From a virus: a DNA stretch of 41,811 bases. How positions within the stretch are numbered: the stretch's first letter is position 1; every line of letters begins with the position of its first letter. Under the pieces are notes generated by a model that ran no database searches, was not told the origin of the DNA, and worked only from the letters and a program-made list of their open reading frames with translations. Of the stretch, positions 8,246-41,695 are shown piece by piece. The position numbers and the translations under genes were made by a program. The DNA lies in IMG/VR virus record IMGVR_UViG_3300024333_000349, positions 1-41,811 of that record, one strand, 5' to 3'.

Positions 8246-8622
8246 TTCGTGTCTCCTCTCTCGCAAGTACAGGGCTTGCTTTGTTCGTGTAGTTGAAAGC
8301 ATTTTAGGCAGGCAACAAATCCGTCCAGCACGCTGCCATCGGGGAATCTAAAGCCCGTTGAATCTTGGGCGCGGGCGCTCGCCTGTTTCTTATCCCTATC
8401 GGCAAGCACAGCGCCGCAGCACGGACATACATCGGCAGGCGATACAACCCGCACCACGCCGCAGCCTTGCCGGAATATCTTGAACGGTAGATTCCGCCTA
8501 GACAATTCCAGCACCAGCCATTTCGCCGCTGGCGGGAAGTCTAGGCTAAGGTCAATCGGCTCGGCTCGGTCAAGCCGGGCGCGGATCGCCGTCTGCCAGT
8601 CAGGATTTATCGTTGTGGGCAT
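8242..8622 (-). CDS. Zinc-ribbon early protein
   Basis: A 126-residue protein. The N-terminal half (DWQTAIRARLDRAEPIDLSL, KWLVLELSRRNLPFKIF) looks like a small alpha/beta fold. The second half has CPCCGAVL (66-69), CLKC (105-108) and CTCERG (118-120), probably one or two zinc sites. It overlaps the recombinase start by ATGA and its own start lies 23 bases inside the upstream gene. Such proteins often regulate or assist the adjacent enzyme; nothing specific is known here. Confidence 0.6.
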   Translation of the reverse strand: MPTTINPDWQTAIRARLDRAEPIDLSLDFPPAAKWLVLELSRRNLPFKIFRQGCGVVRVVSPADVCPCCGAVLADRDKKQASARAQDSTGFRFPDGSVLDGFVACLKCFQLHEQSKPCTCERGDTK

Positions 8623-24323: not shown

Positions 24324-25186
24324 AAGTCACCGCCTTCATTCCATGCGCGCTCAATCTCATCCCGATACCAGTTCACTGTTTGTCTCAGGGATGATTCAAA
24401 CTCGAACGGCGGCAACCAGCCAACGACCGGATTACGCGGCAACGATTCCGGCGCATATTGAAAATCGTAACCGGGACGTTCCTTATTCGCGTTGATCAAT
24501 TTTGCGTCCAGCGGCAAGTCAAGAATGGCGGCAATCCGTTCGGCCATCTCCAGATTGGTGAGCTTGATGCCGTTGAAAATCGTGTATGGCTCGCCCGCCC
24601 TGCCATGCAGATAAAGATAGATGCAGGCGGCAGCAGCGTTCTTGGCATACGTCCAGATTCGGCTGCCGGAATTTCCCGTGGCGTCGGCGTAAATGCCGAC
24701 GATTTGTTTCTTCATAACCGCCCGCACCACTGCTGGCACAAAGTTTTTCCGGTTCTGACGTTCTCCAAAACAATTCGTGCAAAAAACATTGATCACCGGC
24801 AGCCGGTGGCTCCGATAGAACGCCCGGCCCATGTAAGCCGCTGCCGCCTTCGATGCCGCATAAGGACTGGAAGGATCGCCCAACGCCTCGACCGAATTGA
24901 AGTTGATGAATCGTCCATTGCTGGTCATGATCCTGCGGGCGGCTTCCAGCAGATTCGTTGTGCCAAGGATATTATCCAGCACATACTCACTCGCCGGCAC
25001 ATCGCCGTCCATTCGCATCCGGGCGGCGAAATGGAAAATGGCGTCAACGTCGGCGATTCCCCGAAGACATTCGCCGCGCAGATCGGCCTCCGGCCTGTCA
25101 ATCAGGATTGCGTTTTCAAACCCGGCGTATTCAAGAAAGTGGCTGCCGATAAATCCCCTTGAGCCGGTGACGACGACGGCGCTCAT
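24320..25186 (-). CDS. NAD-dependent sugar epimerase/dehydratase
   Basis: A 288-residue extended short-chain dehydrogenase. The NAD-binding glycine motif TGSRGFIGSH is at residues 7-16, FNSVEALGD supplies the Ser/Thr strand, and catalytic YxxxK is SPYAASK (Tyr109, Lys113). Family members convert nucleotide sugars such as UDP-glucose or dTDP-sugars. ATG 25186 is chosen over longer starts because it forms ATGA with the upstream gene and homology begins there. It should provide the donor sugar for the cassette. Confidence 0.88.
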   Translation of the reverse strand: MSAVVVTGSRGFIGSHFLEYAGFENAILIDRPEADLRGECLRGIADVDAIFHFAARMRMDGDVPASEYVLDNILGTTNLLEAARRIMTSNGRFINFNSVEALGDPSSPYAASKAAAAYMGRAFYRSHRLPVINVFCTNCFGERQNRKNFVPAVVRAVMKKQIVGIYADATGNSGSRIWTYAKNAAAACIYLYLHGRAGEPYTIFNGIKLTNLEMAERIAAILDLPLDAKLINANKERPGYDFQYAPESLPRNPVVGWLPPFEFESSLRQTVNWYRDEIERAWNEGGDF

Positions 25187-26832
25187 GATGCCGGCAAACC
25201 TCGCTTTCCTGCCTCGCGGCCATCGAGATGCAGCGTATGCAAGAGATTCTCGCCTTCTGCGTAAAGCGCCAGCCGGAATTTCTCCCACGGCTGGTCGAAT
25301 ACCGCGCCATACATCTTGTGTTCGATGAACCGGCCCGGTTCCGGGCAGAATTCGTTCATCCATTTCCGGTACACAGCCACGGGCGCGACGTGAATCCGGG
25401 CGCTCCAGCAATTTGATTTGATGACTTGACAGCCGTTGATATTGTGCCGCGCCGGGTCGGGATACAGGTGCCGGTGTTCCGGCAGCACAATCTCATTGTC
25501 ATGCAGCCGAATCAGATGAAGCGTGTCATTGGGGAGCAGGGCTTGGCAGATTTTCTCGAAATCAATCGAGCCGGTTGGGAAAGTATCGCTTTCGACATAC
25601 ATCAATAGAGGTGTCCGGCACAAATCAAGCGCCGGTCTGATATGGCCTGTCTCGTGGATATTTTCATTGAAAATGATTGGCAGCACACCCCGGAACGCCC
25701 CGTCCCAGTTGCAGAGCCAAAGGAATCGGCGCTTGAATTCTTCATAATCAGCCCGGCGGTCCTGCTGGTCGCGGCGCAACCCATCGAGAAGCACGATGAT
25801 TTCACAGTTCCGAAGCTGGTCATAGCCGCGAATCCCCCGGACACAGCGCTCGATGATTTCCGTCGAGGGGTGCGATGGATAGACGCAGGCGGCAATCACG
25901 ACGGTTAGTTTGTTCCGCAGATCACAGTCTGGCTTCAGCCCGGAGATAGATTCAATGTCATCATCGAGATTCTGGGCGAAGTCCCGCTTGTAGCGCAACC
26001 ACCAAGCAACGGCCTTGTTCGTATCCTGTTTCAGCCTTGTTGGATCATTGCGGTACTCCGTCAGCAGTTGATGCCATTGCTCCCAGCGCCGCACAACCGG
26101 GAAATCGGCCTGAATCATCCAGTTCCAGTAATTGAAATCTTCAGGATGAAACTGGCTGCGATTGATTGCCACCGGTAGAACCCCCAATTCCAGCGCCTCG
26201 AATACCCGGAAGCAATCCGGCGTATAGTTGCCGGACGGCGACGGCGCAATCTTGGCCTCACTCATCTTCGTCAGATACTCAAGCCGGGGAATCCCATGGC
26301 CGAATCCATCGGTGATTTTGAGGTAGCCATTGCTGGACGCCTGAAGCTGTTTAAAACAGTTCTGGCGATCTTCGTTGATGTCTTGCCCCGCGAAAAACCA
26401 ATCCAGCGGGCGATCCTTGTGCATCGGACAAAGATTGTGTTCCAGAACCATTTCCCGCGAACCGATCATCGGGCCGGTGCAGATGAACCTGTCCGCGCCA
26501 TTGGACATCGGCGGGCGCGGACACTGAATCCAGAATTTCCTTCTATCTCCGCGCAGGTCTTTCCACGGGAACCTGTTTTCCTCATCACCATTGCAGAACA
26601 CCACAGCCCATGGCATCAGATTCATAAACTCAAGAATCTTCGGTGCTCGTCCGTCCAAAAGTCGTGCCTGCAACATGATTACGCCGCCATTGGCCAATTC
26701 ATCTTTAGCCCAAGGCCGGTCAACGAAAGAGAACTGCTGCGTAGGCCAGAGCGCCCTCTCAAAAGCCGCCGTCTGAATGGCGTGATCGCCAAAACCCCTC
26801 CCCTGCGGCCAGAATACCGGGACTGCGTTCAT
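25183..26832 (-). CDS. Two-domain glycosyltransferase
   Basis: A 549-residue protein with two different transferase domains. The N-terminal ~300 residues contain KIAPSPSGNYTPDCFRVFEA and LELGVLPVAINRSQFHPEDF, like the exostosin/GT47 donor site. From ~310, NKLTVVIAACVYPSHPSTEI begins a GT-A domain with CEIIVLLDGLRRDQQ and LLMYVESDTFPT (Glu-x-Asp metal site). Such bifunctional enzymes add two sugars in turn. ATGA overlaps occur at both ends. Confidence 0.8.
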   Translation of the reverse strand: MNAVPVFWPQGRGFGDHAIQTAAFERALWPTQQFSFVDRPWAKDELANGGVIMLQARLLDGRAPKILEFMNLMPWAVVFCNGDEENRFPWKDLRGDRRKFWIQCPRPPMSNGADRFICTGPMIGSREMVLEHNLCPMHKDRPLDWFFAGQDINEDRQNCFKQLQASSNGYLKITDGFGHGIPRLEYLTKMSEAKIAPSPSGNYTPDCFRVFEALELGVLPVAINRSQFHPEDFNYWNWMIQADFPVVRRWEQWHQLLTEYRNDPTRLKQDTNKAVAWWLRYKRDFAQNLDDDIESISGLKPDCDLRNKLTVVIAACVYPSHPSTEIIERCVRGIRGYDQLRNCEIIVLLDGLRRDQQDRRADYEEFKRRFLWLCNWDGAFRGVLPIIFNENIHETGHIRPALDLCRTPLLMYVESDTFPTGSIDFEKICQALLPNDTLHLIRLHDNEIVLPEHRHLYPDPARHNINGCQVIKSNCWSARIHVAPVAVYRKWMNEFCPEPGRFIEHKMYGAVFDQPWEKFRLALYAEGENLLHTLHLDGREAGKRGLPAS

Positions 26833-27518
26833 AATTTCTTCAAGGCAATGGCTACGGGATAAACACCTTCTTTGTTATCATTGCCGTCCGGGGTTTCATA
26901 CTTCCTTGAAGGCGGGCCGCCGGTCAGATGCTCCAAAAACCGGGCAAGGCCGCCCGCCGTGAAATACCATGTGTCTGTTTCTGCGGTGGGGTTGACTTCG
27001 GTGCTGAACGCGATCAAGCCGCCCGGTTTCGTCACGCGAATCATTTCGCTCACCGCGACGAACGCGCCATCGTGCCAGCCGTCCTCCGGGCCGAAATGTT
27101 CTATGCTCGACACGCAGAAACTCGCATCAAAGATGTTGTCAAGATAGTCCAGCCTCATTGAATCCATGACGACCGGCTTCACGTTCGGCAAAAGCTGCCA
27201 ATGAGAGAGAAAACTTTCAAGTTCAATTCCAGCGGCCCTCAGATAGGCCGGCTCCCATTTGTCAGCGGCGATCACCTCATCGGACACGCTCGCCAGCCAA
27301 TCCACCAGCGGCTCGGTGCCGCATGCCGCATCGAGCACGCGCTTGAGCTGTCCGGCATGAAGCAATGCGAAGTTGACCATTGTAACGAATTCCCAGTCTT
27401 TCCGGTTACGCAGGTTCTTTCTGCCGGTTGCTTCCAGCCAAAGCTCCGCAGAGTAGGACAGGCTGGAGTCGAAGTCGGCATAATCACAGCCGCGAATCTC
27501 CAAGAGTTCAACGCTCAT
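26829..27518 (-). CDS. Class I SAM-dependent methyltransferase
   Basis: A 229-residue Rossmann-fold methyltransferase. Motif I is RVLDAACGTEPLVDWLASVS, motif II EVIAADKWEP, and the later block DASFCVSSIEHFGPEDGWHD with RVTKPGGLIAFSTEV is typical of small-molecule or sugar O-methyltransferases. In this glycan cassette it probably methylates a sugar hydroxyl. The usual DxGxG reads DAACG here, a normal variant. Confidence 0.82.
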   Translation of the reverse strand: MSVELLEIRGCDYADFDSSLSYSAELWLEATGRKNLRNRKDWEFVTMVNFALLHAGQLKRVLDAACGTEPLVDWLASVSDEVIAADKWEPAYLRAAGIELESFLSHWQLLPNVKPVVMDSMRLDYLDNIFDASFCVSSIEHFGPEDGWHDGAFVAVSEMIRVTKPGGLIAFSTEVNPTAETDTWYFTAGGLARFLEHLTGGPPSRKYETPDGNDNKEGVYPVAIALKKL

Positions 27519-28618
27519 TTTCGGTATCTCCTTCTGGCTTCCTGTATGACCAAATCAACCGGGGCATTGTACAGCCGGGCGACCATGACGCCAATCTCGT
27601 CAATTTCGTTATCGCCCAAGCGTTCCGGCTTGGCGATCTCCGGCCATTTCAAGTCGGCCAGAGAACCCGCATACTTCGCGGCGGCTGGGTTTGTAAGGAT
27701 AGCCAGCAATTCTTTCATTCGATTGTGGTAAGTGCAAAATTCTTTCACTAGCAGATGCCCGCGCCGCCGGATGCTTTCCCGCTCCGCATCGTGTTCAACA
27801 TAGTAATCAATCAGCCGCTTCAGTTCAACGAAGTCGCCGTATTCGTAGAATCGCAGATGAACGCCATCGGTGAACTCCTGCATCATCCCTTGTATCCACG
27901 GGTGGATCAGGAATCCGCCGCGTCCAAGCGTTTCATAGGCCCGGTCTGACCAATAATGGGGATGGGTATAACCCGGACAGAGCGAATCGCCGACGACAAC
28001 CTTGGCGCTGGCATAGACAGAGTTAAGCAGTTTACCGCGAACGGTTGCTTCCGGGTTGCCGTACTTCTTGAACCTGTCGCCATAGGTCTGACGGAGCCAG
28101 TCAATCAGTCTTGGCCGGTAAGGCCATTCCCTGTGATAATGATAACTGCCGATGAAACAGACATCGCCGGCCAGCATATCATCCGGCCCCTCACAATAGC
28201 AATCGCGCCTGATTACGCCGGGCCGAATCCAATGGTGGTTTACGTTGTGCTGCCGATAAAAAACCTCGCTGCCACCATCCACGCCGAAGAAAATGTCAGT
28301 CTTGAACCACGGATGCACGCCAACGTAATTGGCGGCCCGCCCAATTTCAGCGAACAGATCGAGACTGAACGAAACGGTTTTTACGCCCAGCCCGCGCAGC
28401 CGGGCAAGACAGAGAAACATATCGCCGCGATTCAGCCAGCCGTGCGTGTGCATCCAGAAAAGAAGGTTGCAGGACTTGGCGACATCAAATACTTGCTCGG
28501 AAATAACCTCGTCCTCTTGCAGCGGGATTACCTCGTGCCCCATGTCCCTGAACGTCCACACAAGATCGGATTCGGTGCTGTGCGCTGGCCGGTGATTTCC
28601 GAGAAGGGCGATTTTCAT
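27515..28618 (-). CDS. CgeB-like glycosyltransferase
   Basis: A 367-residue protein starting MKIALLGNHRPAHSTESDLV in an ATGA overlap. GDVCFIGSYHYHREWPYRPR and YWSDRAYETLGRGGFLIHPW match the CgeB/GT-B phage family (Glyco_trans_1_2 type), with the donor-side Glu-Thr-Leu-Gly-Arg-Gly-Gly. CgeB, originally from the Bacillus spore crust, recurs in phage glycan cassettes. The acceptor is unknown. A later ATG-rich opening is not needed. Confidence 0.8.
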   Translation of the reverse strand: MKIALLGNHRPAHSTESDLVWTFRDMGHEVIPLQEDEVISEQVFDVAKSCNLLFWMHTHGWLNRGDMFLCLARLRGLGVKTVSFSLDLFAEIGRAANYVGVHPWFKTDIFFGVDGGSEVFYRQHNVNHHWIRPGVIRRDCYCEGPDDMLAGDVCFIGSYHYHREWPYRPRLIDWLRQTYGDRFKKYGNPEATVRGKLLNSVYASAKVVVGDSLCPGYTHPHYWSDRAYETLGRGGFLIHPWIQGMMQEFTDGVHLRFYEYGDFVELKRLIDYYVEHDAERESIRRRGHLLVKEFCTYHNRMKELLAILTNPAAAKYAGSLADLKWPEIAKPERLGDNEIDEIGVMVARLYNAPVDLVIQEARRRYRK

Positions 28619-29295
28619 TCTGCACACCGTAGTTGCATCTGTGCGATGATTAAGAGCCAGCGCACCAAATCTTCGGGGGAATCAAAATCCCGGCTCAGTC
28701 CTGAGAGATTGGCGAAATTCGGGGAATCATCGGGGATATTGAGAATGTCATCGGATTCAGCGGGCAGCCCGCAAGCAAGCCGGCACGCCCGCCATCCACC
28801 GCCCATTGTTTCGCCCCTGTATTCAGCCTCTAAGAGCTTTGTGACTATCCGGCGGAATCTTTCAATCCACGGCGCAGGTACATATACAGCAAGCATTTCG
28901 CCTTCTGACTTGTTGCCAAACCAGACAATATCCCGCCCCTTGGACAGATTAACGAGCCTGACAATCAGCCGGGCGTCTTTCTCCATGATGAAAACATCAC
29001 CATACAAAAATAGGACATCTTCCTTTGCGTCCTGCCAGAGCGCTTTTGAAGAAAGAAACTTGGCCGTATTCCAATTCACGGTGGACGCCGGCAGGTGATA
29101 ACAGTGAATATCTGGCTCTTGCATCGCCACCTCGCGGGTGATCAAATAGTGTTTGGCGCTCGGAAATCCAGCACTAAACTGGCGATGGAGCCGGTCGATG
29201 ATTCGTTCGCCGCAGATTTTAAGTTCCTGTTTTGCGCATCCCATGAAGTTATTCCAGCGGGTTGACGCTCCGCCGGCTAAATATAGGATTTTCAT
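28615..29295 (-). CDS. Nucleotidyltransferase-like enzyme
   Basis: A 226-residue protein beginning MKILYLAGGASTRWNNFMGC, with AKQELKICGERIIDRLHRQF: the G-G-x-S-x-R and conserved Lys-Gln-Glu-Leu of GT-A-fold sugar-1-phosphate or MobA-type nucleotidyltransferases. VLFLYGDVFIM gives the metal-binding Asp. It probably activates a sugar or recognises a nucleotide sugar. ATGA overlaps couple it to both neighbours. Divergence in the second half leaves the exact substrate open. Confidence 0.7.
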   Translation of the reverse strand: MKILYLAGGASTRWNNFMGCAKQELKICGERIIDRLHRQFSAGFPSAKHYLITREVAMQEPDIHCYHLPASTVNWNTAKFLSSKALWQDAKEDVLFLYGDVFIMEKDARLIVRLVNLSKGRDIVWFGNKSEGEMLAVYVPAPWIERFRRIVTKLLEAEYRGETMGGGWRACRLACGLPAESDDILNIPDDSPNFANLSGLSRDFDSPEDLVRWLLIIAQMQLRCAE

Positions 29296-29954
29296 TGGGG
29301 CAGAAACAGCCAATGTTCTTCATGATCTATTTCAAGCAGGTTTGCTGAGTAGTTATGACTCGTGATGAATTGCAACAGGCTTTCCTTGTTGGAACCGAAC
29401 CGTTCCAGTTGATCGGGATGCACCGAACACCAAATCGTTGGCCTCACTTGGCGCAGCGTCCATTCTGCGCCTTTCAACACAAGCATTTCCGAACCCTCGA
29501 CATCAATCGTTACTGCATCTGGGCGAAGTTTGTGGGCAAGGTCGTCGAGGGCCAAGCGCGGCGTATCGTAATCCTGCGCTAAACTGGAAGTGCCATCAAC
29601 GGGACATTCAACAAAGCTCATCGCGCAAGAGGGCCATTCGCCGAGCAGGAACAGATTTGAATCGCCGGGCGTATCGGCAAGAAACGCCTGACAACAGCCC
29701 GCCGGCATTGCGTAAGAATTTCCTTCCCATGTCATTCGTATATTGGGCCACAAAGCCGCGCTTGGCTCAATCAGCACCATGTTTGATGGCCCAACAAACT
29801 TGGCATAGATCGAACTGCACCAGCCGTGTTCTGCGCCAACATCATAGAGAATCATTCCCTGCCGGAGACGTTCCTCCATTGAATCGAATCGTTTTATTTC
29901 CAGCCGGTAATACCATCCCAGTTCGCAAACCGGTCGCACATCACGGCTTTCCAC
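29292..29954 (-). CDS. FkbM-family methyltransferase
   Basis: A 220-residue enzyme from GTG 29954. Motif I is MILYDVGAEHGWCSSIYA, MVLIEPSAALWPNIR is next, and AVTIDVEGSEMLVLKGAEWT is the FkbM signature. Members methylate sugar or polyketide oxygens. The frame is open to an ATT at 29981 that overlaps the upstream stop and gives a natural N-terminus (IENWIRQSEVESRDV); ATT initiation is rare, so this is only a possibility. It works with the other sugar-modifying genes here. Confidence 0.85.
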   Translation of the reverse strand: MESRDVRPVCELGWYYRLEIKRFDSMEERLRQGMILYDVGAEHGWCSSIYAKFVGPSNMVLIEPSAALWPNIRMTWEGNSYAMPAGCCQAFLADTPGDSNLFLLGEWPSCAMSFVECPVDGTSSLAQDYDTPRLALDDLAHKLRPDAVTIDVEGSEMLVLKGAEWTLRQVRPTIWCSVHPDQLERFGSNKESLLQFITSHNYSANLLEIDHEEHWLFLPQ

Positions 29955-31068: not shown

Positions 31069-33468
31069 ATGCCTTGGAAAACCGAAGATGTGGACTCTCA
31101 TAAGAAGGGCTTGGACGAATCCCAGAAGAAACGCTGGGTGTCCATTGCCAATTCCGTCCTGAAACAGTGCGAGAAAGACGGGGGCAAGGACTGTGAAGGC
31201 AAGGCCGTTCGCATCGCCAACGCCAAATGCGAAGGCAGCGAAGAGAGCCTGAAGGAAATACTTGCCGAGTTTGCCAAGGAGGAAGGCGCTTCTGGCGAGA
31301 AAGGATTTGCCAAGGAATCGTTTGCCGCTGAAGGCGCAAGGATTGATCCCGATGGCGGCGTTATATTCGATGCGCTGGCGTTTGGCCCGAAAGAGAAAGT
31401 CGGCCCGTATTTCAAGGGCGCGAGCGGCTTGTATAGCCGGAACTTTTTTAGTTCGCTTGCCGCCGCAGCCGAAGGCGCTTACTCGTGGCCATTCCATCCC
31501 AGCTTCGATGATATGGGACAGGCCATTCCGCGCGATCCCAAGGCTGCCATTGCCCGCTGGACGGGTCTGAAGGAAGTTGCCAAGGAAGGATTGCCGGAAG
31601 TTCGCGGCAAATGGGCGCTGCGGAAGAAACACAAGGAAGATTACGATTTGGTGCTCGAAAGCCCGCGCAGTTTTGCTTTTTCAATCTTTGCCCCGACCAT
31701 CAAGAAACATGACCCCCAGTATGGTTCGGTGCATGACGCCATTGACTTGGACAGCCCGTGGCGTCCGTCCATTGACCTCGTGGAGGCCGGTGGCGCAAAC
31801 AAGAACGCGATAGAATCGGCTGCCGGTCAGCCGCAACCCAAGTCCAAGGAGGACTATATTATGGAAATGACCCAAGAACAGCTTCAGGCGAAGATTGACG
31901 AAGCCGTGAAGCGTGGCAACGAGGCTCAGGAGGCGAAGTTTACCGCTGAACTGGCCAAGTTGAACCGGAAGAATCTGGTTACGGAGAAACTGGCAACAGC
32001 CAAGTTATCCCGCACTAGTGTCTCGCCGGAATTGATTGAACTGCTGGAAAATCCCGCCACACCAGCGGACAAGCTCGACAAGATTGTGGCCGAACAAGCC
32101 AAGTTGCACGCGGACAATGAGCCGACTGTGACCGGCATGGGCGCATCGAGCCAGCAACCGCCGGACGGGGGATTCACCATTGAACGCGCTGTGCGCGTCG
32201 GCCAGACGCGAGGCGGCGTCGCCGGCATCGCCATTGAAATGGCCGGCGGAAAGCGCGGATTCGAGAGTGACGCGGCCAGCAAGGATTCCTTGATGAAGCG
32301 GTTTGCCGAGGAAATCTATCTCCGCGTCGCCAACTGGAAGGATCAGAGCAAGGAAACCTGCGCGCTTCGGCGGGCGGTCATTGAAGGCTCCAGTCTGCAC
32401 GGGAACTTCTCCGCCTGTTTCGGCGTGCTTCCGATGGACAAGAACCAGATTACGCGGCTCTGTGGCCGGTATCAGCCGTTCGAGTTTGCAATGGAAGCGG
32501 TGGTCAGCACCACGTTCACGATGATCAATCAAGCGCTGCTTTCGGCGGCAATGATTGAGGCTTACAACATTGCCCGCGAAGGATTGATTGGCAAGGAACT
32601 GGTGACGATCTACAACTCGCCGCTGGAAACCGAGCGCATTCCGGGCTTCAGGCGCGGTACTGGCGTGGCGAACGTCGCGGAAGGTGCTGCCTTCCCGGTC
32701 ATGGCCATCACGCCGAAAGCGGTGCAGGACTACGCCTTCACCAAACGCGGCTTCCAAGTCCAGATTACCCGTGAAGAAGTGCTGGGCGACCAGACCGGGC
32801 GCGTCCTCATGGCCGCGAACGATTACGGTCAGGAATTGGCGCTCGATGAGGAGGAGAACATCCTCACCGGCATCTTCGAGTTGAACGGCAAGCAGGTGTA
32901 CCGGCCCGTGGTTGGGAACACCGGCGTCGTCACGGCGCTGTTCAGCGGCGTGAACACGCAGGAATCCAATGCGCTGGTTGATTATCAGAACATCGAAACC
33001 GCAGCCCTGCGGCTTGGCCAGCAGGTTGACGAGAACGGGAAGTATCTCAAGGACAACACCAAGACGCCGTTTGTGATCGTTGTGCCGTGGGCCTTGAATT
33101 TCAAGGCGCGGCGCATCATCGGCGCTCAGTACCTCTGGATGCTCTCCGGCTCAAGCGCGACAGTGCCGGCGGGCACTGCCCGCACCGAGGTCGCCAATAT
33201 GTACGTTGGCACCGAAGTCAAGGTGTCGCAAACCCTGATGGATTACACGCTCGGCTGGACAACGTGGTACATGGCCGGCGCTGGCGGGTTCCAGAAACAG
33301 TACATCTACAAGCAACGCATCCCGCTTGAGTTCGTGCCGATTCCGCCCGCTGAAGTTGCGGCGGTGACTGCCGACATCGTGGCCGGCATCAAGGGCGAAT
33401 ATCTCGCCGGAGTCGTGGCGCGAGACAACAAGTACGTTGTCAAGAACATCGCTGGTACGGCCAGCTAA
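31069..33468 (+). CDS. Fused head maturation protease-scaffold-major capsid protein
   Basis: A 799-residue product from ATG 31069 (AAGGAG upstream). Residues ~8-56 resemble a ChaB-like helical domain (KKRWVSIANSVLKQCEKDGG). About 85-250 reads as a phage prohead-protease-like domain (GVIFDALAFGPKEK, WPFHPSFDDMGQ, SFAFSIFAPTI). A coiled scaffold segment (EQLQAKIDEAVKRGNEAQEA) precedes an HK97-type capsid region (LMKRFAEEIYLRVANW, FAFTKRG-like QDYAFTKRGFQVQITREEVL, WALNFKARRIIGA). These are usually separate genes. A strong internal SD before ATG 31861 would also yield a 535-residue scaffold-capsid protein, which is probably the main form. Catalytic residues of the protease are not certain. Confidence 0.8.
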   Translation: MPWKTEDVDSHKKGLDESQKKRWVSIANSVLKQCEKDGGKDCEGKAVRIANAKCEGSEESLKEILAEFAKEEGASGEKGFAKESFAAEGARIDPDGGVIFDALAFGPKEKVGPYFKGASGLYSRNFFSSLAAAAEGAYSWPFHPSFDDMGQAIPRDPKAAIARWTGLKEVAKEGLPEVRGKWALRKKHKEDYDLVLESPRSFAFSIFAPTIKKHDPQYGSVHDAIDLDSPWRPSIDLVEAGGANKNAIESAAGQPQPKSKEDYIMEMTQEQLQAKIDEAVKRGNEAQEAKFTAELAKLNRKNLVTEKLATAKLSRTSVSPELIELLENPATPADKLDKIVAEQAKLHADNEPTVTGMGASSQQPPDGGFTIERAVRVGQTRGGVAGIAIEMAGGKRGFESDAASKDSLMKRFAEEIYLRVANWKDQSKETCALRRAVIEGSSLHGNFSACFGVLPMDKNQITRLCGRYQPFEFAMEAVVSTTFTMINQALLSAAMIEAYNIAREGLIGKELVTIYNSPLETERIPGFRRGTGVANVAEGAAFPVMAITPKAVQDYAFTKRGFQVQITREEVLGDQTGRVLMAANDYGQELALDEEENILTGIFELNGKQVYRPVVGNTGVVTALFSGVNTQESNALVDYQNIETAALRLGQQVDENGKYLKDNTKTPFVIVVPWALNFKARRIIGAQYLWMLSGSSATVPAGTARTEVANMYVGTEVKVSQTLMDYTLGWTTWYMAGAGGFQKQYIYKQRIPLEFVPIPPAEVAAVTADIVAGIKGEYLAGVVARDNKYVVKNIAGTAS
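31846..31863 (+). promoter_or_regulatory. Internal ribosome-binding site and start in the capsid gene
   Basis: AAGGAGG (31846-31852) is followed after eight bases by ATG 31861, in frame with the long protein and exactly where the scaffold coiled coil begins. This is as good an SD as any in the window and should make a separate scaffold-capsid product, as in nested protease/scaffold genes of other phages. Confidence 0.7.
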
Positions 33469-33544: not shown

Positions 33545-34090
33545 TTGAGTAACGCGATAGACGACCGCGAGACAGTTCTTTTGACAGATTTGGCCGCCGT
33601 CGAAGGCCAAATCAGAACGGTGCGGGCATGGTTGTCCGACCCGGACAATATCTCTGCGCTTACGACATCGGTGGAAGGCAGCCGGGCACAGCAGGAAAGC
33701 CGGCTTGGACAACTGTTGAAAGAGGAAGCGCGTCTGATTGAGCGGTTGGGACAGTTGCCGGTAGAGAATATCTACAAGGTGAACGTGGCCGTGAACGTCA
33801 TCGGGCTGGATACCGGGAAGGACTTGATTCCGCCACAGGGCGCACCGGCGGCTGGCGCAACGAATGGCACGTTCAGCATCGCCAATAACGATACCAGCGT
33901 CGTCCTGACGATTCCGGGCATGACCGGAACCGGGCAGATCGTGATTACGCAGTTGACGCCAACGGGCAACCCCGGTGACGCCATTTACCGCGTCGCCTAC
34001 GCAGTTGACGCCGCCACAGTCACTGCGAATAAGGCACCGGGCGTGGGCAATGCTTTCAACGCCCAATGGACGGTTTCGAGGTATTCGTGA
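33545..34090 (+). CDS. Head/neck protein with C-terminal repeated module (copy 1)
   Basis: A 181-residue protein starting at TTG 33545 (TGGAG upstream). Residues 1-80 are charged coiled coil (ETVLLTDLAAVEGQIRTVRA, RLGQLLKEEARLIERLGQL), a Pro/Gly/Ala linker follows, and residues 107-181 are one copy of a ~75-residue beta-rich module (GTFSIANNDTSVVLTIPGMT, PTGNPGD). The location directly after the capsid suggests a head-completion or decoration protein. The C-terminal module recurs in two tail-region genes. It ends in a GTGA overlap. Confidence 0.65.
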   Translation: MSNAIDDRETVLLTDLAAVEGQIRTVRAWLSDPDNISALTTSVEGSRAQQESRLGQLLKEEARLIERLGQLPVENIYKVNVAVNVIGLDTGKDLIPPQGAPAAGATNGTFSIANNDTSVVLTIPGMTGTGQIVITQLTPTGNPGDAIYRVAYAVDAATVTANKAPGVGNAFNAQWTVSRYS

Positions 34091-34599
34091 GCTTCGTCCT
34101 GACTGATCCGCGAATCGAAGATGCGATTGCCCGGTTTCTGACTGAGATCGCCGCCATCAAGGACAACAATGGCGCAACGCTGTTTCAGATAACCGGACGC
34201 GGGTATCCGGTCAAACAGATATACAAATCTTCTGAACTGCCCGGCGCTTGGGTCAATCTCGTGGACATGCGCGAAGAAGAAGGCATGGTCATGGAAACCC
34301 GCAACGAACGGGATTTGATTGGCGTGCTGATACTCTGGCGCGGTCAGGCCGATGGCAACGTGACCGACCCGCCGCAGATGCTCGTTCAGGAAACGGAACG
34401 GACGGCGATAGGGCTGAATCAACTTATGGGCGCGGTCATCAAGGCGATGGAGGCCAGCACGCTGGACGGCATCACCAACTGGGTGACATGGACGCGGACA
34501 TTGACGCCGGTATTGACGCAGAATCTTCCGCTGAACTCGCTGATGCCGGTGTTCAAGGTGAACATCGCCACGCCGAGGACTGACCCGACAATTTCATAA
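34087..34599 (+). CDS. Head-tail connector / tail-terminator-like protein
   Basis: A 170-residue protein from GTG 34087 (GAGG upstream, GTGA overlap); an ATG at 34066 in the same frame is the alternative. It is alpha/beta (DPRIEDAIARFLTEIAAIKD, SSELPGAWVNLVDMREEEGM, GLNQLMGAVIKAMEA) like many gpU/tail-terminator or connector proteins, which close the tail top. Position between the capsid-proximal gene and a tail-completion gene supports it. The precise family is not recognised. Confidence 0.55.
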   Translation: MSFVLTDPRIEDAIARFLTEIAAIKDNNGATLFQITGRGYPVKQIYKSSELPGAWVNLVDMREEEGMVMETRNERDLIGVLILWRGQADGNVTDPPQMLVQETERTAIGLNQLMGAVIKAMEASTLDGITNWVTWTRTLTPVLTQNLPLNSLMPVFKVNIATPRTDPTIS

Positions 34600-34600
34600 C

Positions 34601-35053
34601 ATGACAGAAGCAGAACAAGTAATTAGAAGCGAATCGGAACGATTGGTGCAAGTTGTTGCCAGCGATATTGCCATTGATAACCGCAACATACTTGACAGCG
34701 GCAAAATGTTCAATTCAAGCGACCCGGAGATTGGCGCGGCGCTGGAGGACGTTACTCCGCTCGCGGCGCGAACGATTAAGATCAAGCGCGATCTTGGCGC
34801 GCCCTACCCGATGCTTGCCCGCGTGCGGACTGAAGCCATGCGCGATTCGATTGAACCTTCCAGCGTCGGCGGGGGGAGGGCGGCTGTGGTTGTTGAGGAT
34901 GATGTTAAGAGTCAGTTTCAACAATCCACTCGGCCTTTTTTTGGCGTCTCGGAATCTGCATTAGCAAAAACCCAAGAGCGTTGTGATGAAGCGGCGGAGC
35001 GCATTGTCAATCAATTACAAGGTTTCACGGCGACCGTGAAAATAACGGTGTAA
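34601..35053 (+). CDS. Tail-completion / virion morphogenesis protein (HK97 gp10-like)
   Basis: A 150-residue protein. The pattern TPLAARTIKIKRDLG..., RVRTEAMRDSIEPSSVGGGR and STRPFFGVSESALAKTQERC matches the phage virion-morphogenesis/HK97 gp10 group (a short basic beta fold then R-x-FFG near the end). Such proteins complete head-tail joining. It starts two bases after the preceding stop. Confidence 0.7.
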   Translation: MTEAEQVIRSESERLVQVVASDIAIDNRNILDSGKMFNSSDPEIGAALEDVTPLAARTIKIKRDLGAPYPMLARVRTEAMRDSIEPSSVGGGRAAVVVEDDVKSQFQQSTRPFFGVSESALAKTQERCDEAAERIVNQLQGFTATVKITV

Positions 35054-35068
35054 CACAAGGAGATAAGC

Positions 35069-35476
35069 ATGTCAGAACCTAATGTCCACAAAAACGTAAA
35101 ACTGGCCAAGTTCTATCCGTCTGATGGAAGCGGCCCGTACACAATCACGTCAGTCATTGACGTGCGGCAGACAGATGCCACGCCGATCCTGACGGCAGGC
35201 AGCGATAACGATTCCAGAAACACCTTTGTCGCCAGCGGCGTCAAGGCCACCAATGGCGAGCTTCGGCAGCGCGACCCGACCACGATGCTCAACGTCTATG
35301 ACAAGCTGGGCATCTTCGTCTTTGTCTGCGCTAACCAGAATCCGGGCGGCAAGGACAAGGTGGTGGAGATCAATCCCTGTCTGTTCCCTCAGCCGGCCAA
35401 CACGCAGGCATGGCAACAGTTGGGAGAAGCAAGTTCCCGGTTTGAAGGCGGTTCAGCGGTAGTCACCATGTCTTAA
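35069..35476 (+). CDS. Probable major tail tube protein
   Basis: A 135-residue beta-rich protein with strong SD (AAGGAG upstream of ATG 35069). It lies just before the tail-assembly chaperone pair, the usual site of the tail-tube gene. KLAKFYPSDGSGPYTITSVI and FVASGVKATNGELRQRDPTT suggest a tube-like sandwich; ANQNPGGKDKVVEINPCLFP is next. It is short for a tube protein, so an alternative minor tail protein is possible. Confidence 0.55.
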   Translation: MSEPNVHKNVKLAKFYPSDGSGPYTITSVIDVRQTDATPILTAGSDNDSRNTFVASGVKATNGELRQRDPTTMLNVYDKLGIFVFVCANQNPGGKDKVVEINPCLFPQPANTQAWQQLGEASSRFEGGSAVVTMS

Positions 35477-35481
35477 CGGTT

Positions 35482-35988
35482 ATGGCCGAACCGCGCATCC
35501 TTGAGGTGGACATTGCGCCGGGTCTTACGGCCAAGGTGCGGGTGCTTTCGCAGCACCCGGAAGACGATGAGGCCCGGCGACAGCTTTACCGCGCCAGCGC
35601 GTTATGGGATTGGGCTGATAAACAGGTGGAACGGGCGGGCATTGAGGTCGAACCCGCCAAGGCCAATCCGCTCATTGAACAGGTCGCCAACGCCAAGCTG
35701 GAACGCGATAAAGCGCGGCGCGAAGCCGTCAAGGTGGCGCTGCGAACCAAACAGAGCGATACCGAAACCGAGGAGATATTGCGGCGATGCGACGACCGGC
35801 TGTTTCTGTTGATTTTCAACGCCTGTCAGGGAATAGACCCCCGCGAAGTGCTGGCCGATTGGCTCGTAAAACAGGTGACGGCGCTCAAGCTGACTCCGGC
35901 GGAATTGCTGGGTGTGTGTTACACGCCGGAAACCTTGGCGTCGTACTTGCCGGGGCTGACCGCCAGTTCTATGCCGACCGTGAGCTAA
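35482..35988 (+). CDS. Tail assembly chaperone (G-like)
   Basis: A 168-residue, highly charged protein (EPAKANPLIEQVANAKLERD, DTETEEILRRCDDRLFLLIF) between tail tube and tape measure, as for gpG-type chaperones. The end overlaps a second frame in the -1 register. At GGGG (35952-35955) a ribosome on the GGG codon could slip back one base, giving ADRQFYADRELIRRKLLERG in the fusion. The slip site is inferred by the fit of the joined protein, not proved. Confidence 0.65.
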   Translation: MAEPRILEVDIAPGLTAKVRVLSQHPEDDEARRQLYRASALWDWADKQVERAGIEVEPAKANPLIEQVANAKLERDKARREAVKVALRTKQSDTETEEILRRCDDRLFLLIFNACQGIDPREVLADWLVKQVTALKLTPAELLGVCYTPETLASYLPGLTASSMPTVS

Positions 35989-36164
35989 TCCGGCGGAAAC
36001 TGCTGGAGCGCGGGATTGTCGGCGAGGGCGCGCGGCTGGTGTCCTATCTGGACGGCTGGCTGATTCAATCCTACGAGGAATATCTTGCCAAACGCGCCTA
36101 TGACACACGCGAATTGGTTGGAGCAGATGTGTTCATGGTAACGGGGGTGCCGGCAGATGCCTAA
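35955..36164 (+). CDS. -1 frame extension of the tail chaperone (GT-like)
   Basis: This 69-residue tail (from Ala-Asp-Arg-Gln-Phe-Tyr onward, with SYLDGWLIQSYEEYLAKRAY) has no convincing own start. Joined to residue 158 of the preceding frame by a -1 shift it makes a 227-residue product, matching the two-protein chaperone logic of lambda G/GT. A GTG in this frame near 35913 is an alternative start. The end overlaps the tape-measure ATG by eight bases. Confidence 0.55.
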   Translation, partial: ADRQFYADRELIRRKLLERGIVGEGARLVSYLDGWLIQSYEEYLAKRAYDTRELVGADVFMVTGVPADA

Positions 36165-38958
36165 CCTGATTATAGATGTGGTGCTCGGCCCCGGCTACGA
36201 AACCGCCAGAAAAAATCTGGCCGATCTATTGCAAGGTAAGGTTACTGAGGCCGCTGGTGCCGGCGCTGGCGTTGCCGGGGCCGCACCGCCCTCAACCATA
36301 GCCCTTCAAGGAACTGCGATACAAAGGGCCAGCCAAGCGGCTGGTGTGCCAACTGCGGTAGAGATACAAGACGCAGTAAGGTCTTCTACTGCTGCGAGCC
36401 GGGCCGGTCATGAGCAAATGCAGCGACAGGCGGCTGATGCTGCCTCCCAAGCAAGGTTGCAACAAGAACAAGCAAGAGAAGACGAAAGGGCGTTTCTTGC
36501 GGGTCGTGCCCGTGACGATGAAGTAACCCGTAGTCAGGCCATTTTAGAGAACGAGATTTACAATAAAAGATTAAGCCGTGAAAGAGGCCGATGGGAAATT
36601 GATGCCGCCGCCGATGCTGGTTCAAAACTGGCGGCAGTAAGACAGAAAATATCACGAGACGATCTTCGGAGTTCGCTGGCTGACGCAAGGGAGGCCAACA
36701 AGCAGCTTACGCGAGTCTATGATGAACGACCGGTAAAATCGGCGAGGGAATCGGCGGCTGTGTTCCTTGAAAAGGAAGCGGAAGAATTACAGAAATCGAA
36801 CATAAAGTTCCGAGACGCCCTTGATTCCAATAGGCGGCTTTCCGAACAATTTTATGACCGGCGGGCGAAATCAGCCAAGGATTCAGCAAGGGTATTTATT
36901 GAGGCCGAAGAACAAATCACTAACGCAATCAGCCGTCCGTCCGCCGCCGGCCCTTCTGGAACACGACAACAAGGTTTGATTGGCCGCGCCACTGCGGTTG
37001 GTGCATTTCGACAATTTATTACCGCAGCAATGCCGGACCTTAACTTGGGGGGCACTCTTGGGGTTGCCGCACTTGGTGCCGCCACCGGAAACTTGACCGC
37101 CCTAGCGCCAATAATTCCACTCATAGCAGGGGCAGAACTTGCGGCGACGGGGTTTGAGGCGGCGCGGAGGCGGCGTGAAGCAGAAGTTGAATTTTTGACG
37201 CAATCAGCGCGCGCTGGTAGAATGCCAATGGGCGCTTATGCCGCTGCCAATGTGCCAATGGGAACCAGACTTGAGAGCTACCGCCGCGAGCCGGGGATCG
37301 AGGGCCTTGGAAGTCTTATTACGGATATTTTCACCGGCGGCTGGATTGGCCACTCAAGATTTGCTGCCCAGAGCCTTCGCGCCGGAGGCAATCTATCAAC
37401 CCTCGGAATTGATGACCGGTCAATTCAGAACATAACCGGCTTGCTCCGGCAGGCTGCGCCGACAATGGGGGGCGATTATGGGGCGCTGGCCGCTGGCGTC
37501 GCTGAACAAGCTGGCCAGCTTCCAACTGGTTTTCGGAGGCGGGCAGCGGAATTGCTCGCAGAACGTATCCGTGCCATTTCATTAAAAATGCCATCCAGTT
37601 CGGAAACCTTTCTTCGGGAGGAGGTCAATGTTGAGACGAAAGCGACGCGCTTCCTCATTGAACAAGGTGAACGATGGGCGGATTTGGCGAACAAACAGGG
37701 CAAAGCATTATCAGTGATGCAGATCAATCAAGCCGCTGATTCCGCTCAACGCAAGGTCTATGATGCCGCTGAAATTCAATCTGGGGAAGCCAAGCTGCGA
37801 TTATTGCAGGCTCCGCAGGAAGTCCGGCGACAAAATCTGGCCATTAGCAAGCGGGTTGCCGATGCGGAATTGGCTCAAGTGGATTTGAGTATCCGGCAGT
37901 ACAAAGAAAAAGCGGACACAATGCAGGATGTGGCCGATCTTTCCAAGGCGCAGTTTGAAGCGGAATATGCCACGATACTCAATCTGGCGCTGGAGGAAGG
38001 GCAGCCGCGAGCAATGGCAGAACTCAATGCCCTGAAAGAAACCGCTCAATTTCGGCAGAAGATGGCTGATGATCAGCGTGCCGCAGATGCGGTAAGGACT
38101 CAACAGCGAGCAGCAGAGGGCAACAGACCCGGCCAGAGAGCGGCGATAGAAATGGAGCGCCAAGCAAGAGACGAAATCATAGAATCAAATCGTGTCTTGC
38201 AAGAACGCGAGAATCTCCTCCAAAAATTGAGTGCGGCCGGCGGAGCGGCCAGAGCGTTGACTGGTGCCGCGTTCGGAAAGGGGATAACGGCGGAATTCGC
38301 CGATATTGCCATCAGCCGGAAAGAGTTGGAGGCAAGGATCGCCTTTGTCCGTTCATTTAACGAGCCGGCGGCGGAGATTCTGTCTTTTCAAAGGGCCGGA
38401 TTGCGCGCGCGCGTAACTGAGGCCATGATCGGACTCGGCGCACAAGTGCGGGCGGGCGAAACGCCGCTGAGTACCGAGGCCGAGCGGCTTCGCCAGCGGG
38501 AACGGGATGAGCGACGCGCCGAGCGCTATCGTATGTGGGTTTCTGAGAATCTGGAACGCGGCGGATATAACGATCCGAATATCCAGCGGGCCGCCGAAGC
38601 GTTGGCTGGTGGGAGATGGCCCGCCGACAGAGAAGGACTGCGGCCATCATCGCGGGGATTACCGGGGCTGCCAACTATCGGTAGGCTTCCAACCGTAGGG
38701 GATTTGCCCAGAATGGGGCCGGGCCCGATATATCCACGCGGGTACGATCCGCGCTTTAATGCCCCAAAGCCAGACGTAGTATCCGGCGGACAGCCTAGCG
38801 GCGGGAAGGGCGAACCGGAACAAAAATTGAAATTGGAAGATGAGAGCCTGATTTCCGCCCTGAACAATCTGGCATCCGTTGTAGCTAGTGCCGCCAGTGG
38901 TGGCACAAACGTATCATCACCAAGCGGAAATGCGACAACTTCATTGAGCTACTATTAA
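36157..38958 (+). CDS. Tail tape measure protein
   Basis: A 933-residue, mostly helical protein with coiled coils (RARDDEVTRSQAILENEIYN, REANKQLTRVYDERPVKSAR), a hydrophobic central segment (~305-335, GTLGVAALGAATGNLTALAP) and Ala/Glu/Arg-rich repeats. A repeated KSARESAAVFLEKEAEEL / KSAKDSARVFIEAEEQI motif lies at ~190-255. It sets tail length: at about 1.5 angstrom per residue, roughly 140 nm. The C-terminus is Gly/Pro-rich. It is directly downstream of the chaperone pair. Confidence 0.88.
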   Translation: MPNLIIDVVLGPGYETARKNLADLLQGKVTEAAGAGAGVAGAAPPSTIALQGTAIQRASQAAGVPTAVEIQDAVRSSTAASRAGHEQMQRQAADAASQARLQQEQAREDERAFLAGRARDDEVTRSQAILENEIYNKRLSRERGRWEIDAAADAGSKLAAVRQKISRDDLRSSLADAREANKQLTRVYDERPVKSARESAAVFLEKEAEELQKSNIKFRDALDSNRRLSEQFYDRRAKSAKDSARVFIEAEEQITNAISRPSAAGPSGTRQQGLIGRATAVGAFRQFITAAMPDLNLGGTLGVAALGAATGNLTALAPIIPLIAGAELAATGFEAARRRREAEVEFLTQSARAGRMPMGAYAAANVPMGTRLESYRREPGIEGLGSLITDIFTGGWIGHSRFAAQSLRAGGNLSTLGIDDRSIQNITGLLRQAAPTMGGDYGALAAGVAEQAGQLPTGFRRRAAELLAERIRAISLKMPSSSETFLREEVNVETKATRFLIEQGERWADLANKQGKALSVMQINQAADSAQRKVYDAAEIQSGEAKLRLLQAPQEVRRQNLAISKRVADAELAQVDLSIRQYKEKADTMQDVADLSKAQFEAEYATILNLALEEGQPRAMAELNALKETAQFRQKMADDQRAADAVRTQQRAAEGNRPGQRAAIEMERQARDEIIESNRVLQERENLLQKLSAAGGAARALTGAAFGKGITAEFADIAISRKELEARIAFVRSFNEPAAEILSFQRAGLRARVTEAMIGLGAQVRAGETPLSTEAERLRQRERDERRAERYRMWVSENLERGGYNDPNIQRAAEALAGGRWPADREGLRPSSRGLPGLPTIGRLPTVGDLPRMGPGPIYPRGYDPRFNAPKPDVVSGGQPSGGKGEPEQKLKLEDESLISALNNLASVVASAASGGTNVSSPSGNATTSLSYY

Positions 38959-38959
38959 C

Positions 38960-39583
38960 ATGCCAAATCCAGCATCAGACATCAGCGGCGTCAAGACTTG
39001 GAACTACGAAGTCGAAACGCCGGAACCGCGCATCCTGCGGTGGGAACTAGCCGGGTTTGACGGCTACATCGAGAACCCGCTGAACGTCCGGCCCGTGGTC
39101 ATCACCGAAACCGGCTGGACAAGCACAGCCATTGCCACGTTGCAGGCGTTGTTCAAGGATCGGGGCAAGTCCAATCTTACCACCACACTGAACACCAAGG
39201 GCAAGGGCATCTACACCAATGTCTATCTGTGGGACGCGAGGCTCACTGGCCGGAGCCGCGGCGACGGTACAAAGGCGATGGAGGTGGAATACCGGCGTAT
39301 CTGGCAACAGATTATCTGTGGCGCAGACATAGAGAACCCGCCGAGCGCCGATGTCTATGGCAGTTTCAGCATCACCGATTTCAATACCAGCGTGGTGATT
39401 CCAGTCATCGGCCTGACGGCCACCGGGCAGGTCTATATCACTCTCATTGCGCCGACCGGGAATCCGGGCGACACGATTTTCACCGAAACTTATACAGACA
39501 ACCAAGTGACCGTCTCCGTTGACAGTCCGCCCGGATTCGGGCAGGCGTTCAACGGCCTCTGGTATTTGGGGAGGCTGACCTAA
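38960..39583 (+). CDS. Distal tail-type protein with repeated module (copy 2)
   Basis: A 207-residue protein starting one base after the tape measure. The N-terminal ~120 residues (TWNYEVETPEPRILRWELAG, ENPLNVRPVVITETGWTSTA, GKGIYTNVYLWDARL) are beta-rich and resemble a distal-tail or tail-tip assembly protein. Residues 133-207 are the second copy of the ~75-residue module (GSFSITDFNTSVVIPVIGLT, PTGNPGDTIF). The module is likely surface-exposed. Confidence 0.65.
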   Translation: MPNPASDISGVKTWNYEVETPEPRILRWELAGFDGYIENPLNVRPVVITETGWTSTAIATLQALFKDRGKSNLTTTLNTKGKGIYTNVYLWDARLTGRSRGDGTKAMEVEYRRIWQQIICGADIENPPSADVYGSFSITDFNTSVVIPVIGLTATGQVYITLIAPTGNPGDTIFTETYTDNQVTVSVDSPPGFGQAFNGLWYLGRLT

Positions 39584-39584
39584 T

Positions 39585-39815
39585 ATGGGCGGAGATTTCT
39601 CAATCAGCGGTTCAAACACTTCCACGGTGATCGCCATTGTCGGCATGACTGCGACCGGCCAGATTGCCATCAGTCTCCTGCCGCCCACGGGCACGCCGGG
39701 TGATACGATTTTCCGCCAGACAGCCGGCAGCGGCAGCGTCACCGTCAGCGTGGACACCGCGCCGGGCACCGGCAATGCGTTCAACGGACGGTACACAGTC
39801 CTACGGTATAGCTGA
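39585..39815 (+). CDS. Stand-alone copy of the repeated virion module (copy 3)
   Basis: A 76-residue protein consisting of just the module: GGDFSISGSNTSTVIAIVGM, TATGQIAISLLPPTGTPGDT and FNGRYTVLRYS. It aligns along its full length to the ends of the genes at 33545 and 38960, with conserved FSI, NTS, TGQ, PTG-PGD and AFN. It lies between two tail proteins, overlapping the next by one base. It is probably an added decoration or receptor-contact protein. Confidence 0.7.
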   Translation: MGGDFSISGSNTSTVIAIVGMTATGQIAISLLPPTGTPGDTIFRQTAGSGSVTVSVDTAPGTGNAFNGRYTVLRYS

Positions 39816-41695
39816 TGGGCGCGACACAGACGCGGACAATCGTTGAAGTGATTCTTGGCGGCATCAGCCAACAAGGGTATTTGCGGGACTTGTGCAAGGT
39901 CGCCGGCCAGCCCGGTTTCGCCGTGGTACAACTTATCCGGCAATCGGCCTACAAGTTCGACAAGACGACCATTCAGAAGAAACTTGCCCAAGTCAAACTC
40001 AACGGTGTGCCGTACATTGTCGGTTATCCGCTTCTCTCGGATTGCGTGGCTGAGGACGATACGGTTTCGATCAAGATCGTGGACAAACGCTGGCTGGTGA
40101 ACAAGGACTGGGTTGGCCGCCGCCATCTGCCGCCGAACGGGATTCGCTGGCTCGGTTCAGACATCATCTTCAATCTGGACGGGAAACGGAACAAGGACAA
40201 GGATGCGCTGCAATTCGTGTACGAGCGCGGGAACGTAACCGACCCGGAGAACTGCGCCGTTATAGAGGCGACCTATTGGACGTATGCCGATATTTGGAAC
40301 TGGGTCTGGCGCGAGTATGTGGATGATGTAGCCGCCCCGACCCTGCCCGTAACAGGTGGGCTGAACCGGTCGGCAGGCGAAATAGATTTGACCGGTATGC
40401 CGGTAGGCGTGGCGCTGGATTATATCCTCTCGTTCACTGAATGTGCTTGGACGATTGACGCCAATGGCAATGCCGTTGTGTTCAATGTCCATTCGCCGCG
40501 CACCACAAGAACGCTCAAGTTCAATGACCCGGCTGAGAAACTGCCCGTGACCAGCTATTCGACTGATTACCCGGTCAAATTCCGGGTCATTACGAATCAG
40601 GAGGATGTGGCAACAAACATTGAGATCGTCGGCGGCAAGACCATCCGGGAAATCATGGCCACAGAAGATGATTTCTATGATGAGGCGTTGGAACTTAACG
40701 TCGAGCCGGTGGCGAGTTATCCACCGATAGACGTTGTTCCTCCCGGCGGTGGGGCTATTGTCCGCGAATTCCGCAATTACGCCAAGAATATGTATTACCG
40801 GCACGGATTCAAGCGCGACCGGTACGAAACGCACGGGGCTGGCAGGAATATCCGGCGGAAAGACAACGCCAAGCCCATTCTCGGCGAACTGATGATTGGC
40901 CGGAACCGGGACGGCGGCTATGTCAACGCCGAAAGCGAGTGCAACTTTCTTGGCAGCAGCCCGACATGGTTGCTGGGCCAACAATATCACGCCGGCGGCG
41001 ACATAGATACCATCCGGGGTGAGATTGACATCTCGTATTACGATACGATCTATGCGCCGGATGCACCGAAACGATTCACGCACGCCATCGAGACCGAGGA
41101 ACGCGAGTTTGTAACGTCATCGGCTACGCACCCAACGCTGCCAAAAGCGGTTCATCGCGCCGTGCTGCGCGGTGAGTTTGTCCACAAGACGCGGGAGGCC
41201 GTAAAGATACCGGTGCCAGTACAGATTGTCCGCATCTGCACTTCCGGCGGCTGCACTTATTCTGTCACTGAAGCGATAGACCTGACAGACCTATTGGCCG
41301 CTGGCGCAACGCGGGATTATCCCGACCCGGCTGGCGGGCCGTTCAGTGGCACGCCGGACATGGAAACCTTCACAGTAACATTGCCGGCTGGCGTCATTGA
41401 AGATGCCATTGGCCCGCTGAACGAAGTCAAGAGCTTCGTGGACGGCATCAACCGGGTTGACGCCGTTCAGATTGAAGGCGCGTTTCCCTGCCTGACCAGC
41501 CTCGACGTAGGCGATTTGATTGTGACAAGCCCGGCCAACGCCTACGGCAGCACCGGGCTGGAAGTCGTAATTGGCCTGCGGTTCAGCGAACGAACACAAT
41601 CGCTGGAATTCATTGCCACCAACTATGTCAGCGTCAATGCCATCGGCGCGGCACAGGCATTTGTCAACCGCGTGGCCTACAGGACGCCGCTATGA
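39815..41695 (+). CDS. Baseplate hub / tail-associated protein
   Basis: A 626-residue protein. The N-terminal part (VEVILGGISQQGYLRDLCKV, VKLNGVPYIVGYPLLSDCVA, EDDTVSIKIVDKRW) fits a phage tail-hub/Tal-like fold; later regions are mixed, with RICTSGGCTYSVTEAIDL and a beta-rich end (VNAIGAAQAFVNRVAY). It lies just after the distal-tail genes and would form the tail tip contacting the host. No lytic or receptor-binding domain is clear. Confidence 0.65.
   Translation: MGATQTRTIVEVILGGISQQGYLRDLCKVAGQPGFAVVQLIRQSAYKFDKTTIQKKLAQVKLNGVPYIVGYPLLSDCVAEDDTVSIKIVDKRWLVNKDWVGRRHLPPNGIRWLGSDIIFNLDGKRNKDKDALQFVYERGNVTDPENCAVIEATYWTYADIWNWVWREYVDDVAAPTLPVTGGLNRSAGEIDLTGMPVGVALDYILSFTECAWTIDANGNAVVFNVHSPRTTRTLKFNDPAEKLPVTSYSTDYPVKFRVITNQEDVATNIEIVGGKTIREIMATEDDFYDEALELNVEPVASYPPIDVVPPGGGAIVREFRNYAKNMYYRHGFKRDRYETHGAGRNIRRKDNAKPILGELMIGRNRDGGYVNAESECNFLGSSPTWLLGQQYHAGGDIDTIRGEIDISYYDTIYAPDAPKRFTHAIETEEREFVTSSATHPTLPKAVHRAVLRGEFVHKTREAVKIPVPVQIVRICTSGGCTYSVTEAIDLTDLLAAGATRDYPDPAGGPFSGTPDMETFTVTLPAGVIEDAIGPLNEVKSFVDGINRVDAVQIEGAFPCLTSLDVGDLIVTSPANAYGSTGLEVVIGLRFSERTQSLEFIATNYVSVNAIGAAQAFVNRVAYRTPL

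Follow-up and report, generated by a model that had tools for sequence, protein, structure and literature searches.

Introduction

In tailed phages, Ig-like domains are promiscuous small beta-sandwiches found at the termini of virion proteins, including those of the capsid and the tail, and are thought to bind surface sugars. Another arrangement is found in the lactococcal phages of the 936 group, where carbohydrate-binding modules are carried on the neck passage structure, the major tail protein and the evolved Dit, and where GFP fusions served to assess binding (PMC6669499). Evolved Dits improve adsorption to hosts that bear exopolysaccharide (PMC10688798).

Here we analyse a window of 41,811 bases, equal to one entire IMG/VR virus record, in whose virion operon a module of about 75 residues occurs three times, in every case on the plus strand and in frame within an open reading frame (ORF). 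As in the 936 phages, a single phage carries the same module on two or more virion proteins, here with two copies fused and one free, and the module is optional on otherwise conserved proteins, as seen from module-less syntenic homologues in a relative. Between this module and the 936 carbohydrate-binding modules themselves we detect no sequence relation.

Three copies of one module

Copy 1 (33863-34087) forms the C-terminus of the ORF at 33545-34090, copy 2 (39353-39580) forms the C-terminus of the ORF at 38960-39583, and the free copy (39585-39812) makes up the entire 76-residue ORF at 39585-39815. Pairwise identities among the three lie between 44 and 61%, with E about 1e-22 or better. Comparison of the full ORFs by BLASTP gives 54% over 74 residues for 33545 and 39585 (E 4e-26), 61% over 66 residues for 38960 and 39585 (E 2e-26), and 44% over 79 residues for 33545 and 38960 (E 2e-22); identity to the free copy is 53-54% for copy 1 and 57-61% for copy 2. 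Smith-Waterman scores between copies range from 189 to 210, whereas 1000 shuffles never gave more than 70, and 29 of the 76 columns in the three-copy alignment are invariant. The original prediction of one module repeated three times in the virion genes is thus borne out. It had also placed an Asn-Thr-Ser in all three copies, which holds for two, the sequences at this site being NTST, NTSV and, in copy 1, NDTS.

Ahead of each fused copy lies a short linker rich in Pro, Gly and Ala, namely the Pro/Ala/Gly-rich PPQGAPAAGATNG before copy 1 and ENPPSADVY before copy 2. Copy 2 and the free copy form a contiguous tandem pair across one gene boundary and copy 1 lies at another, so that the module occupies two sites rather than three. 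The 41,811-base record contains no fourth copy. It breaks off 116 bases past the gene at 39815-41695, and further copies could therefore lie beyond its right end, which is missing and with it the usual place of tail-fibre genes.

The copies differ mostly at third codon positions, with dN of 0.45-0.49 and dS of 1.3-1.7, the latter being near saturation, and this bias (dN well below dS) argues that all three have been maintained as proteins. The free ORF starts 1 nt past the stop of the gene before it and its own stop overlaps the start of the 39815 gene (TGATG). It resembles a real gene, since a Shine-Dalgarno-like GGGGAGG (39568-39574) stands 10 nt ahead of its ATG.

Proteins that carry the module

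The order of the virion genes, all of those with an assigned strand being on the plus strand, indicates what the two host proteins may be. The conserved part of a capsid gene (31339-33468; PF25209 Phage_capsid_4, E 1.7e-8; phrog_133, E 5e-7) lies just upstream of copy 1, and the ORF directly after it, at 33545-34090, encodes a 181-residue protein in head/neck position, whose N-terminal 100 residues or so comprise a helical, coiled-coil-like segment and a short further part before the module begins. There follow a gene at 34066 that looks by eye like a tail terminator, one at 34601 that by eye resembles a tail-completion protein, one at 35069 in the tail-tube position, two overlapping genes at 35482 and 35787 in the position of the tail assembly chaperones, and a 933-residue protein (36157-38958) in tape-measure position. 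The second host, of 207 residues (38960-39583), has a body of about 117 residues followed by the C-terminal module, and it lies in the position of a distal-tail protein (Dit/gpM), between the tape-measure gene and a 626-residue tail-associated protein (39815-41695; Tal-like, from its position), those two identities resting on position and size.

The original prediction had described the hosts as a neck/head protein and a distal-tail-like protein. Gene order fits both descriptions, but neither host has a homologue that we could find in a known family, nor a confident fold. A structure model of the Dit-position body is poor (pLDDT 49); its fold matches include kinases as well as tail and baseplate proteins, all at a probability of 0.45 or less, and we set them all aside because the model is too poor for any match to carry meaning.

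As called from the ATG at 34066, the ORF at 34066-34599 (plus strand) begins before copy 1 has ended. The GTG at 34087 looks a likelier start, with a GTGA overlap with the stop of the 33545 gene and GAGG just upstream, and it fits the shorter N-terminus of the homologue in the relative described below.

A collinear relative

Profile scans with the module and with the Tal-position, Dit-position and capsid proteins all converge on one IMG/VR contig of 47,904 bases, IMGVR_UViG_3300035670_000342, which is collinear with the window across the virion genes. Its capsid protein is 34% identical to that of the window and its 636-residue Tal-position protein about 39-40% identical; its tape-measure-position protein, of 924 residues, occupies the corresponding place, and no sequence similarity to the 933-residue protein of the window could be detected.

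Both host proteins are present in this relative without the module. Its Dit-position protein, of 117 residues, is 45% identical to the Dit-position body of the window and ends exactly where the module begins in the window protein. Its Tal-position gene begins two bases after the Dit-position gene (34037/34039), and since the two adjoin there, the window has an extra stretch that holds copy 2 and the free copy. The post-capsid protein of the relative (28609-28899), of 96 residues, likewise stops short of the module. It is too diverged for detection by tblastn; the N-terminal 95 residues of the 33545 protein nevertheless align to it without a gap and score 100. No shuffle of 2000 exceeded 61, and five other virion proteins of the relative gave 23-35. 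Because the module-less proteins are complete and the next genes start right behind them, the modules are best seen as optional additions at gene ends. The original prediction of a transferable module, carried by unrelated hosts and in one case free, is well supported by this comparison.

The relative does have one diverged copy of the module, 34-42% identical to the copies of the window, at the C-terminus of a 247-residue ORF downstream of the tail-associated gene, in the usual region of tail-fibre genes. At the sequon site this copy reads DDES, with no Asn. The copies of the window are closer to one another (45-54%) than to it, which suggests that the module spread in the lineage of the window; the comparison has four sequences, none of them an outgroup, and gain here and loss there both fit. 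Several genes of the relative past its tail-associated gene (locus L004, 4821-10355) open with signal-peptide-like stretches, for example MRRTWPVITLALLLATPCFG, MIKYVAVFMLVVSAAFGKD and MRTLALYFLLTVVAVAQ, which is odd for virion fibre proteins.

Predicted fold and database searches

AlphaFold2, run on the three-copy alignment, predicts a compact all-beta domain (pLDDT 83.9, pTM 0.72), in agreement with the original prediction of a beta-rich module. Among the top Foldseek neighbours in the PDB, at E 0.05-0.6, phage tailspikes and fibres predominate: Sf6, Pam1 (TMq 0.62-0.66), AP22 Gp54, the K64-1 depolymerase, R2 pyocin and endosialidases. A CBM3b is also among them (E about 0.1, TMq under 0.5), as are aminopeptidase N and other unrelated proteins, small beta-sandwiches being common; no match in the PDB is better than E 0.05 and none reaches E 0.001. 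Many of the neighbours in BFVD are tail, tail-fibre or receptor-binding proteins, the best at E 8e-4 and the only one below 0.001. We take the module to have a beta fold, as modelled, of the kind used on phage spikes, and we assign it to no family.

Three comparisons with known families bear on this reading. The first is with PF24146 (K1-lyase_C), a widespread tailspike C-terminal domain whose profile we assembled afresh with sequences from Streptomyces phages and from 80 IMG/VR loci. Against it the module gives an hhalign P of 0.0012 over 43 columns in register (probability 19.5%), a P-value that is optimistic because PF24146 was chosen by eye; the score is 21.4, compared with at most 20.2 in 150 column shuffles. 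The Pfam model of PF24146 recovers known members at 1e-31, and at E<=10 it has no match to any of the four module sequences. A relationship between the two profiles is suggestive only. Like the module, PF24146 is about 70 residues long and mostly C-terminal on diverse phage proteins, ending within 3 residues of the ORF end in 83 of the 123 domain hits in these loci, and 3 of 30 records have neighbouring proteins that both match above the cut-off; unlike the module, its members sit mainly on spikes and fibres. The second is with PF12195 (End_beta_barrel), the endosialidase beta barrel, endosialidase tailspikes being among the fold neighbours of the module. The copy in the relative matches it over most of its length at E 0.0066 and 15.5 bits, below the cut-off of 35 bits; none of the three copies of the window matches, and the model also matches control genomes weakly. 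Third, the module has no match to an Ig-like Pfam family, and Ig-like domains are typically longer.

Searches for further members led back to the same contig. The original prediction had proposed a profile search of phage and metagenomic sequences; this returned the one relative contig, with its module copy 34-42% identical. Scans of IMG/VR with the module profile, the module of the relative and the Tal-position, Dit-position and capsid proteins gave no other, and neither did two degenerate DNA patterns (PGxGNAFN and GxGNAFNxxW) combined with HMMER. Genome contigs scanned with the module and Tal profiles contained none, and tblastn against 50,697 phages found no relative of the module, the host proteins, the capsid or the Tal-position protein. 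No family in Pfam, PHROGs or the PDB sequences claims the module, matches being absent or below threshold, and searches of PDB sequences with it gave chance matches only. One candidate, gp48 of Nonlabens phage P12024L (157 residues), which only its length links to the fold neighbour I6RTE7 from BFVD, was rejected since it has no profile similarity to the module.

Other genes of the phage

On the minus strand, between the terminase side and the capsid gene, lies a block of sugar-related genes (22666-29954). It comprises a GT2-like gene (22666-23442), a GT1-like gene (23442-24290), a GDP-mannose dehydratase/epimerase (24323-25411), an RXYLT1_C-like protein (25186-26832), a methyltransferase (26832-27518), a Glyco_trans_1_2 gene (27518-28627), a MobA-like NTP transferase (28618-29313) and an FkbM methyltransferase (29295-29954). 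By tblastx, some of these genes have counterparts in the relative.

Elsewhere the window holds four separate genes of the N6_N4_Mtase DNA methylase family on the plus strand (397-1221, 15409-16620, 16983-17684 and 18049-19065), a large number for a 42-kb phage. A gene of the phage integrase family (PF00589, E 5e-16) at 7361-8302 on the minus strand suggests that the phage is temperate. The large terminase (19535-20932, plus strand) has its best phage matches, at 34% identity, in psiM2 and psiM100, archaeal viruses of Methanothermobacter, and also matches over a thousand bacterial phages.

Discussion

Our analysis points to a small domain that has been attached, as an option, to the ends of virion proteins. 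We think it probable that the module is an accessory adhesion module on the exterior of the virion and that it binds the host surface weakly, probably through glycans. How could such an arrangement arise and work? A self-contained beta domain of about 75 residues would have been duplicated within the lineage of this phage and joined by short Pro/Gly/Ala linkers to the proteins in head/neck and distal-tail position, in each case at the C-terminus, with one tandem copy produced as a separate small protein. Several copies on the exterior could then make weak contacts, probably with glycans, and these would help to keep the virion near the cell and oriented until the dedicated receptor-binding proteins engage. 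We regard accessory adhesion as the simplest reading of a domain with a spike-like beta fold on the ends of otherwise complete virion proteins in head/neck and tail-tip positions. The contact with receptor or glycan that the original prediction had suggested is plausible, given the weak similarity to tailspikes and fibres and the analogy with published modules; the exposure of the module on the virion, its glycan ligand and the role of the free copy are what we infer.

A structural role deserves the most attention among the alternatives. The module might oligomerise its host proteins or stabilise the collar and the tail tip, with the free copy filling or capping the assembly. The tailspike proteins among the Foldseek neighbours suit this view as well, since C-terminal domains of tailspikes also trimerise, as that of a K. 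pneumoniae phage tailspike does (PMC10936425); moreover copy 1 comes after a coiled-coil-like segment, and a free copy made beside a fused one could co-assemble with it. However, the relative has both proteins without the module, which argues that core assembly does not need it, and the Pro/Gly-rich linkers suggest domains that hang from their hosts rather than being integrated. We therefore hold a structural role to be possible but unlikely.

The free copy admits two narrower readings. It might be a real virion protein that co-assembles with the fused copies, for example as mixed trimers, at the head/neck and at the tail tip, in which case one small gene could tune a two-site adhesion coat in valency or specificity; we consider this a long shot, and we know of no loose domain combined with anchored domains in this way among phage carbohydrate-binding modules. 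Or it might be a mere leftover of tandem duplication without a function of its own, the fused copies doing the work. Its start 1 nt past the Dit-position stop, and a relative that has nothing at that place, would suit a leftover, but the ORF is intact, has a Shine-Dalgarno-like sequence 10 nt upstream and a stop-start overlap with the next gene, and has diverged chiefly at third codon positions, and we give this reading a slim chance. Finally, the glycosylation-target idea of the original prediction, in which the enzymes of the phage would put sugar on the Asn or Thr of the NTS and so mask the virion, draws on the block at 22.7-30 kb with its glycosyltransferase, epimerase, NTP-transferase-like and methyltransferase genes, but we have dropped it as highly improbable because the sequon is not conserved in position (NTS in two of three copies, no Asn in the copy of the relative), none of the genes tested was recognised as an oligosaccharyltransferase, nothing ties the block to the module, and the targets of such blocks may just as well be the host surface or other substrates.

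Whichever role applies, the locus is a clean natural example of one small domain spread over several particle proteins of a phage, and both states can be read, the one without modules in the homologues of the relative and the one with modules in the tandem pair and the distant copy. If the adhesion role is true, the multi-site binding-module strategy of lactococcal phages would extend to a lineage almost without relatives in the databases we searched, and it would do so by means of a domain family absent from both Pfam and PHROGs.

The comparison with the 936 phages can now be made more closely. Their carbohydrate-binding modules, those of the BppA type included, are like the present module in that they sit on neck and distal-tail proteins of one virion, in that they are optional, phages with and without them existing, and in that they are found at protein ends or as insertions. 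There are differences. In the evolved Dits of the 936 phages the carbohydrate-binding module is inserted, whereas here the module is added at the C-terminus; unlike the 936 modules, the present one has a free-standing copy; and the 936 modules have been assayed for binding, whereas ours is known from its sequence and predicted fold, with no significant match to a known sugar-binding family in Pfam, PHROGs or the PDB sequences. The module is a new sequence family, and its arrangement is of a kind already known.
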